Positions 16,370-64,000 of a stretch of 64,000 bases of DNA are shown here, piece by piece; positions within the stretch are counted from its first letter, which is position 1, and each line of letters opens with the position of its first letter. The notes under the pieces are model-generated. The model did no database searches. It was not told the DNA's origin and was given only the letters and a program-made list of their open reading frames with translations. Source of the DNA: Demequina activiva. GTDB lineage: Bacteria; Actinomycetota; Actinomycetes; Actinomycetales; Demequinaceae. The translations under genes and the position numbers were made by a program. The DNA lies in NCBI RefSeq assembly GCF_016862815.1, contig NZ_BONR01000006.1, positions 62,001 through 126,000 of the forward strand. Reading direction: 5' to 3'.

Positions 16370-18556
16370 GTGTCTCGATCAGCTCAGGGGCGCTCCGGCC
16401 GTGCGCGCGCCAAGGGCGGCACGCCGCGCCCTCGAGGCGGTGGCCGGAAGCAGCAGGCGACCAGGCCCCGCGAGAAGGGCCTCATCCCGCTGCTCGCAGC
16501 GCTCGCGAACGATGTCGACCGCGCACTGCAGCGTCCTCCTGTTCGCGCCAGCGTGCGCACCACCTTCCAGGTCGTGGCGCTGCTGGTGCGCGAGGAGCGG
16601 GCGGCGGTGAAGGACGACGCATCGCTCAGCTCTTCCGCGCGAGAGGAACGCCTGCGCAGGCTCGACGGCGTCGGGGAACTGCTCGCGAAGACTGCCGCGC
16701 GCGACACGTCGCTGCTGACGCTGCTCGCGGAGGACGCGCGCGTGAGCGACGCGGCTCGCGGCCTGAGGCTCGACGTGCTGCGCCAGGCGGGACGCGACGT
16801 ACCGGACGAGCCCGAGCCTGCGCACGAGCCTCCTGCCGCGCCGTCGCCTGGTGCCGAGAAGCAGGTGGTGCCGCAGTCCGCGCTGTCGCGCCAGATGGCG
16901 AACCCCTTCCTGGCACCGTCCTTCGGTGCAGCCCGCGAGCAGGAGGCCGCACGGCCTCGACGTCTCGCAGGGTGGGAGCTCCTCACCCCGCTGTTCCGCT
17001 CCTTCGAGCACGACTCGCCGGGAGTGCCCGCGTGCATGGCGCTGCCCGAGCGAGGGTCGACCGCCGGAGCGACACGCCTGCCGCTCGGCCGCTCTCTGAT
17101 GCCGCACCAGGACCAGGTGGTCGGAGCCGCTGCACGAGGGCATCGCACCTTCCTGCTCGCCGACGAGCCCGGACTCGGCAAGACGGCCCAGGCGCTGCTC
17201 GCCGCGCAGGCCGCCGACGCGTACCCGCTTCTCGTGGTGGCGCCGAACGTCGTGAAGACCAACTGGGCGCGCGAGGTCGACATGTGGACTCCGGGCCGCC
17301 GTGCGACGGTGGTCCACGGTGACGGCGACGACGTGGATGCCTTCGCTGACGTGGTGATCGTCAACTACGACATCCTGGACCGCCATGCCGGGTGGTTCGG
17401 CACCCACGGATTCCGCGGAATGGTCGTGGACGAGGCGCACTTCATCAAGAACAAGTCGTCGCAACGCTCGCAGCATGTGCTCGAGCTGTCAGCGCGCATC
17501 CAGCAGCGCACCACCCGCCCGCTCCTCATGGCGCTCACCGGCACGCCGCTGATCAACGACATCGAGGACTTTCGGGCGATCTGGCAGTTCCTCGGCTGGA
17601 TCGACGAGGACAAGCCGCGAGGGCCGCTCATGGCGGCGCTCGAGGCGACAGGCTTGGATCCGAGCGACCGGGGATTCTTCGCGGCCGCGCGTTCTGCTGT
17701 CATCGATCAGGGGATCGTCCGCCGGCGCAAGGTCGACGTCGCGGCGGACATCCCGTCGCGGCGCGTCGCTGACCTGCCCGTCGAGCTCGACGGACCCGCC
17801 GGTCGCACCATCCGTGCTGCCGAGGCCGCTCTCGCCGAACGGATGGTCGCCCAGTACCGGCGCGCCGTCAGCGCCCGCGAGGACGGCGAGCCGGTCGACG
17901 GCGTCGACCTCGGCATCGCACGCGCGATCGCAACGGCCGAGCTCAAGGATGCGGCCTCCAAGAAGTCTGGCGACACCGTGTTCGCTCTGGTCCGTCGCAT
18001 CGGCCAGGCGAAGGCCGGGCTTGCGGCCGACTATGCGGCGCAGCTGGTTCGCAACGTCGGCAAGGTCGTGTTCTTCGCCAAGCATGTCGACGTCATGGAC
18101 GAGGCGGAGCAGACCTTCGCGGACCGTGGGATCGGCTATGTCTCGCTGCGCGGCGACCAGAGCGCCAAGGCGCGAGAGCGGAGCATCGCCTCGTTCACGG
18201 ACGATCCTGATGTCCACGTCATCGTGTGCTCGCTCATGGCCGCCGGAGTAGGCGTGAACCTGCAGGCTGCGTCGAACCTCGTGCTTGCTGAGCTGTCGTG
18301 GACCGATGCAGAGCAGACGCAGGCCATCGATCGCATCCACCGCATCGGCCAGACCGAGCCAGTGACCGCGTGGCGCATCATCGCGACGCAGACCGTCGAC
18401 TCAAGGATCGCGCAGCTCATCGACAGCAAGTCCGGACTCGCGGCTCGCGCGCTCGACGGAGCTGTGGGCGACGACGCCGAGCCCTCGGCTTCGGCTCAGG
18501 TCGAGGCCCTGGTGGGGCTGCTGGTGGATGCGCTCGATGCCGAGGCCGCCGACTGA
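16370..18556 (+). CDS. SNF2-family DNA-dependent ATPase/helicase
   Basis: The 728-residue protein has a basic, disordered N-terminus of about 45 residues, a helical region of unknown function to about 200, then a SNF2 motor. The Walker A-like DEPGLGKT lies near residue 264, the DEAH box (VVDEAHFIKN) near 353, LTGTPLIND near 390, and motif VI (IDRIHRIGQ) near 655. SNF2 proteins translocate on double-stranded DNA; the single-domain layout resembles SMARCAL1/HepA-like annealing helicases. The GTG at 16370 is chosen for AGGAGG just upstream; ATG 16343 is in frame. No restriction or defence genes are nearby, so a housekeeping role is more likely. Confidence 0.88.
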   Translation: MSRSAQGRSGRARAKGGTPRPRGGGRKQQATRPREKGLIPLLAALANDVDRALQRPPVRASVRTTFQVVALLVREERAAVKDDASLSSSAREERLRRLDGVGELLAKTAARDTSLLTLLAEDARVSDAARGLRLDVLRQAGRDVPDEPEPAHEPPAAPSPGAEKQVVPQSALSRQMANPFLAPSFGAAREQEAARPRRLAGWELLTPLFRSFEHDSPGVPACMALPERGSTAGATRLPLGRSLMPHQDQVVGAAARGHRTFLLADEPGLGKTAQALLAAQAADAYPLLVVAPNVVKTNWAREVDMWTPGRRATVVHGDGDDVDAFADVVIVNYDILDRHAGWFGTHGFRGMVVDEAHFIKNKSSQRSQHVLELSARIQQRTTRPLLMALTGTPLINDIEDFRAIWQFLGWIDEDKPRGPLMAALEATGLDPSDRGFFAAARSAVIDQGIVRRRKVDVAADIPSRRVADLPVELDGPAGRTIRAAEAALAERMVAQYRRAVSAREDGEPVDGVDLGIARAIATAELKDAASKKSGDTVFALVRRIGQAKAGLAADYAAQLVRNVGKVVFFAKHVDVMDEAEQTFADRGIGYVSLRGDQSAKARERSIASFTDDPDVHVIVCSLMAAGVGVNLQAASNLVLAELSWTDAEQTQAIDRIHRIGQTEPVTAWRIIATQTVDSRIAQLIDSKSGLAARALDGAVGDDAEPSASAQVEALVGLLVDALDAEAAD

Positions 18557-18585
18557 CCCTGCGCGTCACGAATGTGCCCTCCCAG

Positions 18586-18591
18586 TACCAT
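18586..18591 (+). promoter_or_regulatory. Leaderless -10 box of cutC
   Basis: TACCAT ends 6 nt before the GTG at 18598. It decides between that GTG and an in-frame GTG at 18574, which lies upstream of the box. Confidence 0.6.
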
Positions 18592-18597
18592 CGAACG

Positions 18598-19320
18598 GTG
18601 CCTCCTCACACTGCCAGCTCCGTCCTGGTCGAGATCGTGATCGATGACGTCGAGGGTGCGGTGGTCGCCGAGCGCGAGGGCGCCGACCGCGTGGAGCTGT
18701 GCGCGGACCTGGGCCAAGGAGGAACCACGCCGTCGATCGGGATGATCCGGCAGGTGCTGGCGCGCGTGGCACGCGTGGGAGTGCAGGTGATGGTGCGGCC
18801 ACGCGGCGGTGACTTCGTGTACGACGAGGACGAGGTCGCGGTGATGGTCGAGGACGCGCGGGCGATCCGCGACCTGGCCGCCTCGGCGCGCGTGAGGGTG
18901 GGCATCGTGACCGGGGCTCTCACGGCGGAGGGCGCCGTCGACGAGCAGACCGTCGCGCGCATCGTCCAGGCAGCGCAGCCGGTCCCGGTGACGTTCCACA
19001 AGGCCATCGACGACGCCGCGGACCTCGACGCGGCGTATGCCGGGCTCGCGCGACTGGGGGTCGAGCGCGTGCTCACCTCTGGCGGTGCGCCCACGGCGGC
19101 GCAAGGAGCCGATGCGCTGGCGCGGCTGGCGGCGGCGCCGTTCGGGCCCGCAGTGCTCGCCGGCGGGGGAGTGCGTCCGCACAACGTGGGCGCCCTGCTC
19201 GCATCGGCTCCCGTGCGCGAGGTGCACCTGCGCGCGCAGTCGCCCAGCCTCCGCGGCGACGGCACCCTGCGCACTGACCCTGAGACCGTGCGGGCGGCGG
19301 TGGAGGCCGCCCGTTCCTGA
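18598..19320 (+). CDS. cutC: CutC family protein
   Basis: This 240-residue TIM-barrel protein carries CutC hallmarks: VELCADLGQGGTTPS, MVRPRGGDF, VTFHKAIDD and LTSGGAPTA. CutC was named for copper homeostasis in E. coli, but that role is disputed and the enzymatic function is unsettled. The length is typical. The leaderless -10 box sets the start. It follows the helicase gene by 41 bp on the same strand, and no other copper gene is near. Confidence 0.93.
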   Translation: MPPHTASSVLVEIVIDDVEGAVVAEREGADRVELCADLGQGGTTPSIGMIRQVLARVARVGVQVMVRPRGGDFVYDEDEVAVMVEDARAIRDLAASARVRVGIVTGALTAEGAVDEQTVARIVQAAQPVPVTFHKAIDDAADLDAAYAGLARLGVERVLTSGGAPTAAQGADALARLAAAPFGPAVLAGGGVRPHNVGALLASAPVREVHLRAQSPSLRGDGTLRTDPETVRAAVEAARS

Positions 19321-62305: not shown

Positions 62306-62659
62306 ATGACGGACACTGCCACGGAGGCTGTCGCTCACGGAGTCGTCATCACGGATGCGGCTGCTGGGAAGGTCAAGAGCCTGCTGGAGCAGGAGGGTCG
62401 AGACGACCTCCGCCTGCGCCTCGCGGTTCAGCCCGGAGGATGCTCGGGGCTCATCTACCAGCTGTACTTTGACGAGCGCATGCTCGACGGTGACGCCATT
62501 CGCGACTTCGAGGGCGTCGAGGTCGTCGTCGACAAGATGTCGGTGCCGTACCTGGACGGTGCGACCATCGACTTCGCCGACACGATCGAGAAGCAGGGCT
62601 TCACTATCGACAACCCGAACGCCTCGAGCTCCTGCGCTTGCGGCGACTCCTTCAGCTGA
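62306..62659 (+). CDS. erpA: A-type iron-sulphur cluster carrier protein
   Basis: This 117-residue HesB/IscA-type protein delivers Fe-S clusters to target enzymes. The three ligand cysteines are present: Cys46 in QPGGCSGLIY and Cys110 and Cys112 in SSCACGDSFS. AAAGGAGG lies just before the ATG. Targets in this window could include LipA, NadA and FadH. It converges on a cysteine-desulfurase-like gene that lacks PLP-binding residues. Confidence 0.96.
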   Translation: MTDTATEAVAHGVVITDAAAGKVKSLLEQEGRDDLRLRLAVQPGGCSGLIYQLYFDERMLDGDAIRDFEGVEVVVDKMSVPYLDGATIDFADTIEKQGFTIDNPNASSSCACGDSFS

Positions 62660-62679
62660 GTCGACAGTTCTTCACGCCG

Positions 62680-62712
62680 ACGGGCGGCATGGCCACAGGC
62701 CGTGCCGCCCGT
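62680..62712. terminator. Bidirectional terminator between erpA and the class V gene
   Basis: Arms 62680-62694 and 62698-62712 pair over 15 bp with one G-U pair around the loop ACA, between convergent genes. Confidence 0.82.
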
Positions 62713-62744
62713 TCGCATGTGCGGGCGGCGTCGCTGGCGAACCG

Positions 62745-63863
62745 CTAGGCCTGCATGGTGCGCCGGACATCCTCGATGACGCGCGGCATGGTGGCGAGGA
62801 AGCGCTCCACATCCGCCTCCTGCACTGCGGGAGGCAGGCCCACACGGAGGTTGCCGTGAGTGAGCGCGCCCATCGCGGCCAACACCTGGCTGGGCTCGAA
62901 GGTGTCCGATCCGCATGCGGAGCCGGAGCCCACGGCGAAGCCCTCGCGGTCCAGGCGTGACACGACCGGCTCGCCATCGAGGTACATGAACGCGGCGGTG
63001 ACGAGGTGCGGCAGACGCTCGTCCTCGGCTCCGACGATGGTCACGCCCTCGAGCTGGGCGAGCTCGCGACGGATGCGGTCGCTGAGAGCGTGGAGGCGCG
63101 TGCGCGTGGCCTCGAGCGTCTCGAGGCGCTCCTGCAGCGCGACGGCCGCCGCCAGCGCCAGCGGAATCGACACCCCGCCCGGCGCCATGTCGTCGCCGGC
63201 CCACGCCGCGAGCCAGCGCGTCTGAGGCCGCATCGCGACGACGCCCAGCCCCAACGGTGCACCCCAGTCTGCGGGGTCGGCGAGGAGGGCGTCCCAATGC
63301 TCGGGCGGCTCGATGTGGCCGATCGAGGCCGAGCCGTCGACCACGAGAGGCACCCCAGCATCATGCGCGAACGCGTGGAGCGGCTCGATCCGCTGCACGG
63401 TGCCGATCTCATGATTCGCGTGCTGCACCAGCGCAAGCGACGTGGACGGATTCGACACCGCGGTAGCGAAGGCGTCCATGTCGACGTGTCCCTCGGCGTC
63501 CACCCCGATGCGCTCGACCCTGTCCGGGGCCACGTGCTCAGCCGCCTCGAGCACTGCGGTGCGCTCGATCGCGCTCGCCACGATCACGTCGCGCCCGCGC
63601 CGTGCGAGATCGATTCCGGCGATAGCGCGGTCGAAGGCGAGATGGGCGCCGGGGACCAGGTGGAGGTGAGCGGGGGAGGCGCCCAGCGCATCGGCGATCG
63701 CCTCGCGCGCGCCGTCGAGCACGGCCCGAGCACGGCGCGATTCGGCGGTCAGGCGGGCCGGATCGGCCCACCCGTCGGCAAGGCCGGCCTGGAGCGCGTC
63801 GGCCACCCTCCTCGTCACCGGAGAGCGGCCGCCGGCGTCGAGGAACACGCGAGGGGCTGGCAT
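62745..63863 (-). CDS. Cysteine-desulfurase-like (aminotransferase class V fold) protein lacking the PLP lysine
   Basis: The 372-residue protein aligns along its length with IscS/NifS. It keeps the mobile-loop Cys317 in GSGSACGSDTFEPSQVL, the HANHEIGTVQRI stretch (IscS HVNNEIGTVQ) and Asp176 in VVDGSASIGH. The PLP lysine motif (SGHK in IscS) is replaced by PADW at 197-200, and the whole protein contains no lysine. The PLP-stacking His (TEHKAVL) is Arg (IERTAVL), the phosphate-binding Thr (GATE) is His, and the Gln of VDAAQS is Ala. It cannot form an internal aldimine, so it is probably a pseudoenzyme. The leaderless box sets the start, back to back with ctaC. Confidence 0.85.
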   Translation of the reverse strand: MPAPRVFLDAGGRSPVTRRVADALQAGLADGWADPARLTAESRRARAVLDGAREAIADALGASPAHLHLVPGAHLAFDRAIAGIDLARRGRDVIVASAIERTAVLEAAEHVAPDRVERIGVDAEGHVDMDAFATAVSNPSTSLALVQHANHEIGTVQRIEPLHAFAHDAGVPLVVDGSASIGHIEPPEHWDALLADPADWGAPLGLGVVAMRPQTRWLAAWAGDDMAPGGVSIPLALAAAVALQERLETLEATRTRLHALSDRIRRELAQLEGVTIVGAEDERLPHLVTAAFMYLDGEPVVSRLDREGFAVGSGSACGSDTFEPSQVLAAMGALTHGNLRVGLPPAVQEADVERFLATMPRVIEDVRRTMQA

Positions 63864-63869
63864 GCCCTC

Positions 63870-63875
63870 ACGGTA
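63870..63875 (-). promoter_or_regulatory. Leaderless -10 box of the desulfurase-like gene
   Basis: TACCGT on the minus strand ends 6 nt before the ATG at 63863. Confidence 0.65.
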
Positions 63876-63883
63876 TCGCGCGC

Positions 63884-63889
63884 TAGACT
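63884..63889 (+). promoter_or_regulatory. Leaderless -10 box of the terminal lipoprotein gene
   Basis: TAGACT ends 6 nt before the GTG at 63896. It lies 8 bp from the opposing box, the same geometry as pepA/pyrD. Confidence 0.65.
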
Positions 63890-63895
63890 GACCGG

Positions 63896-64000
63896 GTGTC
63901 CAAGAAGCCACCATTTGCCATGCCCCGGAGAGCGCTGACAGGCGCTGGTGCGCTCGGCCTCGCGGCCCTGCTTGCAGGTTGCTCGCAGGGGATCGAGAAC
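63896..64000 (+). CDS. ctaC: Lipoprotein, probable cytochrome c oxidase subunit II (5' part only)
   Basis: Thirty-five residues are visible: a basic start, a hydrophobic stretch and a lipobox (LLAGC, Cys29) followed by SQGIEN. In actinobacteria ctaC commonly lies near erpA and begins with such a lipobox, so subunit II of the aa3 oxidase is the best guess. The copper-binding domain is outside the window, so the identity rests on gene order. The GTG start is fixed by the leaderless box. Confidence 0.55.
   Translation, partial: MSKKPPFAMPRRALTGAGALGLAALLAGCSQGIEN

Follow-up and report, generated by a model that had tools for sequence, protein, structure and literature searches.

What function can a homologue of a cysteine desulfurase perform once the residues that hold its cofactor have been replaced? 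A cysteine desulfurase combines two abilities, the making of a persulfide, which relies on pyridoxal phosphate (PLP) and a lysine, and the handing on of that persulfide, which relies on a mobile cysteine. In the window, that is, the whole stretch of 64,000 nucleotides of Demequina activiva DNA analysed here, positions 62745..63863 of the (-) strand (stop codon included) encode a 372-residue protein of the NifS/IscS fold. The initial annotation had described it as a full-length cysteine desulfurase homologue devoid of lysine, and inspection of the codons bears this out: the translation of the open reading frame contains no Lys and a single Cys, Cys317 of the Cys loop. The protein carries an Aminotran_5 domain (PF00266, E=1.8e-30), which places it in the aminotransferase class V fold, and its AF2 model (pLDDT 95.6, pTM 0.93) adopts the fold of IscS. 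Its top fold matches are NFS1 and the IscS proteins of M. tuberculosis, E. coli and A. fulgidus (Z ~46-47); fold matches that were weak or absent were excluded as evidence. Among the curated NCBI desulfurase models (NifS, IscS, DndA, SufS and others) the best score was obtained with TIGR03402, 178 bits against a cut-off of 530.75, and five relatives from the order or the class, two of them TusA fusions, likewise fall under every listed NCBI cut-off. The host genome has a size of 2.47 Mb, and the titled relatives of the protein at 57-79% identity are nearly all from Demequina.

The differences from active enzymes are concentrated around the cofactor. In the family alignment, supported by a check of the codons, the Schiff-base lysine (IscS Lys206) corresponds to Asp199 (63267..63269, (-)), the positions of IscS His205 and Ser203 are occupied by Ala198 and Asp196, the PLP-stacking His104 is replaced by Arg101 (63561..63563, (-)), the PLP-phosphate Thr by His74 (63642..63644, (-)) and Gln183 by Ala179 (63327..63329, (-)). 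The replacement of stacking His, phosphate Thr and Gln by Arg, His and Ala had been read correctly from the start; the SGHK motif, reported as changed to PADW, is indeed replaced, but the register has to be shifted, as SGHK aligns with D196-P197-A198-D199 and the W follows one residue on. On the one hand, therefore, the protein has neither the Schiff-base lysine that defines a cysteine desulfurase nor the PLP pocket formed by the stacking His, the phosphate Thr/Ser/His and the Gln. On the other hand, Cys317 (62913..62915, (-)) aligns with the persulfide-forming Cys328 of IscS and is located in residues 316-319, the only part of the model with pLDDT below 50, in agreement with a catalytic Cys on a mobile loop. 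Arg340 (62844..62846, (-)), which occupies the position of the substrate-carboxylate Arg of cysteine desulfurases, is also retained according to the alignment and the codon check.

These features are shared far beyond the window. A homologue is present in 47 of the 47 searched genomes of the host's taxonomic family (44-79% identity, one of them incomplete), none of these homologues contains inner stops, and position 199 is D or S in all 47 distinct proteins examined from that family. Across the order as a whole, a match at E <1e-35 occurs in 111 of 396 genomes. The proteins compared consisted of the Demequina set, most other matches of the order with E <1e-50 and a class-wide sample, and were divided into 114 Lys-less and 71 Lys-bearing sequences. 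None of the family members fetched from the order of the window has the Schiff-base lysine, whose place is taken by Asp, Ser, Ala, Gly, Thr or Glu. A few lineages of other orders (L180, L187, L189, L190, L204-L207) are also without this lysine, and over all 114 Lys-less members Met is found at the position as well. Other relatives in the class, including those of Actinoplanes and Streptomyces, have the lysine within SAHKWGG or a near variant. These Lys-bearing proteins share the ctaC-erpA locus, the family and the Cys loop with the window protein and, unlike it, keep the stacking His, the phosphate Thr and usually the Gln; identity to the window protein is 35-79% over the whole alignment for the family and mostly 40-43% for the Lys-bearing members, which, judged by their residues, are presumably active desulfurases.

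The loop Cys is found in 185 of 185 family members, and thus in each of the 114 Lys-less ones, in 23 of which it is the sole Cys of the protein; Arg340 has no exception in an alignment of 116 sequences. Both Cys317 and Arg340 have zero entropy in the Lys-bearing as well as in the Lys-less set, and Asp176 and Asn150 are nearly invariant in both. The rise in variability from the Lys-bearing to the Lys-less set is greatest at positions 73 and 74 (the Gly and Thr of the phosphate loop) and 102 (next to the stacking His), and the stacking His 101 together with Ser196, His198 and Lys199 of the SxHK motif are nearly fixed in the former set and variable in the latter. For closely related pairs of Lys-less genes, dN/dS (NG86) is 0.05-0.27. 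Taken together, the comparison indicates that the ability to hold the cofactor is lost and the sulfur-carrying loop is retained. The initial annotation had proposed a new role from this selective loss, to be followed in an alignment of homologues from the same locus, and had named random loss of the Cys loop, a dN/dS near 1 and a frameshift or assembly error as findings that would speak against it. None of the three adverse findings was seen, and the invariance and the purifying selection support the direction of the proposal.

The complete absence of lysine, which had been presented as the key feature, deserves less weight. At the 2.0% Lys of the window, the binomial probability of no lysine in 372 residues is ~5e-4; lysine use varies greatly between genes, however, and in the window a 243-codon open reading frame with coding-like GC3 at 18499-19230 (-) is also without lysine. 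The family as a whole is poor in lysine: Lys-bearing relatives contain on average ~1.7 lysines besides the catalytic one, and 71 of the 114 Lys-less members have none at all. Zero lysine was therefore rejected as a separate phenomenon, being a common by-product once the catalytic residue has gone. The alignment is informative in that the lysine at position 199 has gone along with the other contacts to PLP, rather than in the lack of lysine throughout the protein.

The neighbouring genes had been taken as a hint of a role with ErpA or in cytochrome oxidase maturation. The convergent neighbour at 62306..62659 (+) is erpA, encoding an A-type Fe-S carrier (PF01521, E=4e-19, and synteny), and the divergent neighbour at 63896..64000 (+) is the 5' part of ctaC, recognised by resemblance and by the adjoining ctaD, which follows ctaC; the gene continues beyond the window. 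The same arrangement, with erpA convergent and ctaC divergent, is found throughout the class, Lys-bearing relatives included. The flanks are, by this synteny, ancient, and since they are shared with Lys-bearing relatives the location provides no evidence for a new role. The start of ctaC lies 32 bp from the ATG of the Lys-less gene (gap 63864-63895); elsewhere in the order, other genera mostly have 100-400 bp between the divergent starts. A TAGACT hexamer is located just 5' of the ctaC GTG, and a leaderless ctaC transcript would fit this sequence. In orthology and in its divergent ctaC flank the locus agrees with an actinobacterial ctaC-erpA module of a NifS-like protein and TusA. The TusA gene, directly downstream or fused, is absent from the window species, and the interval 62660-62744 is too short for one. 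In one locus, L096, the NifS-like/TusA unit is flipped between erpA and ctaC in a manner resembling an in-place inversion of both genes. A literature search, with most subscription journals outside its coverage, found no publication that deals with the NifS-like/TusA/ctaC cluster.

In most loci with enough flanking sequence a TusA gene follows directly downstream on the same strand, and its start often overlaps the stop of the NifS-like gene, so that the two are translationally coupled. TusA is fused to the C-terminus in Streptomyces and also in one Lys-less member, L128. With a search pattern that did not require the Cys, 142 TusA copies adjoining family members were counted; the counterpart of E. 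coli Asp51 is an Asp in all 142, and the CPxP Cys is kept in 140, the exceptions being L092 and L093. These two loci belong to a sister genus within the host's taxonomic family; their Cys loops read VGCGCTCGR or VGVGCSCGS, with extra cysteines, their TusA-like neighbours have no CPxP Cys, and the genome of L092 contains a second copy, L091. A further functional change has possibly taken place there. The second TusA Cys (PAWC) is present in 67 of 67 copies beside Lys-bearing proteins versus 22 of 75 beside Lys-less ones, and its loss in the remaining 53 (for example in L096-L126 and in Demequina L018-L031) suggests that the chemistry of the TusA step may have changed in Lys-less lineages. By counts, proteins without the stacking His strikingly often adjoin a TusA that has lost its second Cys, but the association comprises only three independent pairs. 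The evidence from gene order, coupling and fusion points to TusA as the partner, rather than to ErpA or CtaC.

TusA presence changes 14 times on the tree, which implies repeated loss, including that in the window species and its close sisters; other Demequina retain TusA beside the gene. The main clue to a relay role is thus missing in the window species, yet the loop Cys persists in this species and its sisters despite the loss. The only TusA match in the host genome (G000:C1:873800-874006, L211) lies inside an 841-codon open frame, which perhaps encodes a multidomain sulfurtransferase.

A tree that includes other desulfurases places the actinobacterial family in one clade apart from them (support 99). 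In a family tree computed without the active-site columns, the Lys-less proteins of the order lie on one branch (support 84). The best tree contains four lysine changes, but a single origin is allowed (AU p 0.373) and the starred branches force only one change; taxonomy and synteny make several independent losses likely, though not proven. The relatives represent each stage: lysine present; lysine lost and stacking His kept; all contacts lost; and TusA lost.

The reading that we prefer, to which we give about an even chance, is that the window protein is a catalytically dead member of the cysteine desulfurase fold which uses Cys317 to relay persulfide or to act as a docking subunit, and is loaded by another desulfurase. 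The fold, the lost PLP contacts, the invariant Cys, the purifying selection and the linkage to TusA are the observed parts of this reading. The IscS mutants K206A, H104Q and Q183E, each with a single change, are inactive as desulfurases (PMC9978102), and because all three positions are replaced here, the window protein would be expected neither to bind PLP nor to desulfurate cysteine, so that sulfur would have to be obtained from elsewhere. The persulfide on Cys317 could come from another cellular desulfurase, such as a SufS or NifS-type enzyme, or from a small persulfide; the host genome encodes SufS with an adjoining NifU_N (SufU-type) protein, the one such protein found, and also a NifS-type enzyme whose active site is complete. 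The mobile loop would then pass the persulfide on, ancestrally to TusA. The loop Cys of E. coli IscS gives its sulfur to Cys19 of TusA at a distance of ~4 A, and the IscS-TusA complex (PDB 3lvj) shares the fold with the window protein (Z 46 over 364 residues), with TusA as acceptor (PMC2854127). Unlike the window protein in the role proposed here, E. coli IscS works with PLP and generates its own persulfide; an IscS-like hand-over to TusA without persulfide making would be the simplest role, as we infer it, that keeps both cysteines. With the TusA gene lost, this Demequina and its close sisters must use another protein as the acceptor, perhaps a SufU-type scaffold or ErpA.

The main rival, to which we assign a rather low probability, is that Cys317 takes part in binding a nascent [2Fe-2S] cluster while this sits on a scaffold, either a SufU-type protein or ErpA, with no sulfane sulfur involved. 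Its model is IscS of A. fulgidus, which has the same Lys-to-Asp change and no desulfurase activity, and whose Cys serves as a ligand of the cluster on IscU (PMC7585200). That protein (PDB 4eb5, 4eb7, 4hvk; D199K mutant 4r5f) is the best PDB sequence match of the window protein (E 2.8e-37) and resembles it in Lys to Asp, Gln183 to Ala and the kept Cys loop, and the adjoining erpA would suit such a role. However, erpA also adjoins Lys-bearing relatives, the partner is IscU in A. fulgidus and TusA in the actinobacterial family, and the coupled or fused TusA is a sulfur carrier rather than a scaffold. A. fulgidus IscS, in addition, keeps the stacking His and the phosphate Thr, unlike the window protein, and its sequence HGTLLLTL no longer contains the Arg invariant in the actinobacterial family. 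In the tree with other desulfurases, where its sequence was taken from the PDB search alignment, it groups with canonical IscS (support 96), outside the actinobacterial clade, which contradicts common descent; the Lys-to-Asp change therefore looks convergent.

It is also conceivable, if improbable, that the protein acts as a scaffold or regulator that binds TusA, SufS or the respiratory assembly machinery with no Cys chemistry, comparable to the Lys-less subunit of fold-type I pairs; its fold and surface are retained. PDB 3cai, which we take to be Rv3778c of M. tuberculosis, is a weak match (E 1.3e-5, residues 28-209), and if this identification is right Rv3778c represents another branch. Rv3778c is related to desulfurases and, like the window protein, Lys-less and presumably noncatalytic (PMC12910592), so pseudoenzymes of the same fold are known. 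Such a role leaves unexplained why the Cys is kept in every family member, even where it is the sole Cys. A less probable variant of the relay is a widespread PLP-independent sulfur donor, in which the emptied pocket, with Arg340 and Asn150 kept, would bind a small persulfide, for example cysteine persulfide, and transfer its outer sulfur through Cys317 to TusA or another acceptor as a B6-free transpersulfidase. A residual enzyme, holding PLP or another carbonyl cofactor without lysine and performing slow chemistry on cysteine, is very improbable: some PLP remains bound to IscS K206A (PMC9978102) and Asp176, Asn150 and Arg340 are retained, but all three positions at which a single mutation inactivates IscS are changed here, and the phosphate Thr, the Ser and the His are lost as well. 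A decaying relic or a sequencing error, which the many missing active-site residues might suggest, can be dismissed as nearly incredible, since dN/dS is far below 1, the Cys is kept in all Lys-less members, and intact homologues, free of inner stops and with D or S at the site, occur throughout the 47 genomes.

An archaeal noncatalytic desulfurase kept for its Cys was already known from A. fulgidus, and IscS1 of Methanosarcina acetivorans, also Lys-less, is a further archaeal precedent. What is new is a case that is order-wide, tied to TusA and apparently of independent origin, and it would constitute a second dead desulfurase retained for its cysteine. Owing to the Aminotran_5 domain, members of the family are expected to be easily annotated as cysteine desulfurases, giving misleading database names, and metabolic models that count proteins so annotated as sulfur sources would be wrong. 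The stages preserved among the relatives allow direct tests of the sequence of events and of the partner, in a whole bacterial order that appears to keep the half of a cysteine desulfurase that hands sulfur over by its Cys without the half that makes the persulfide.
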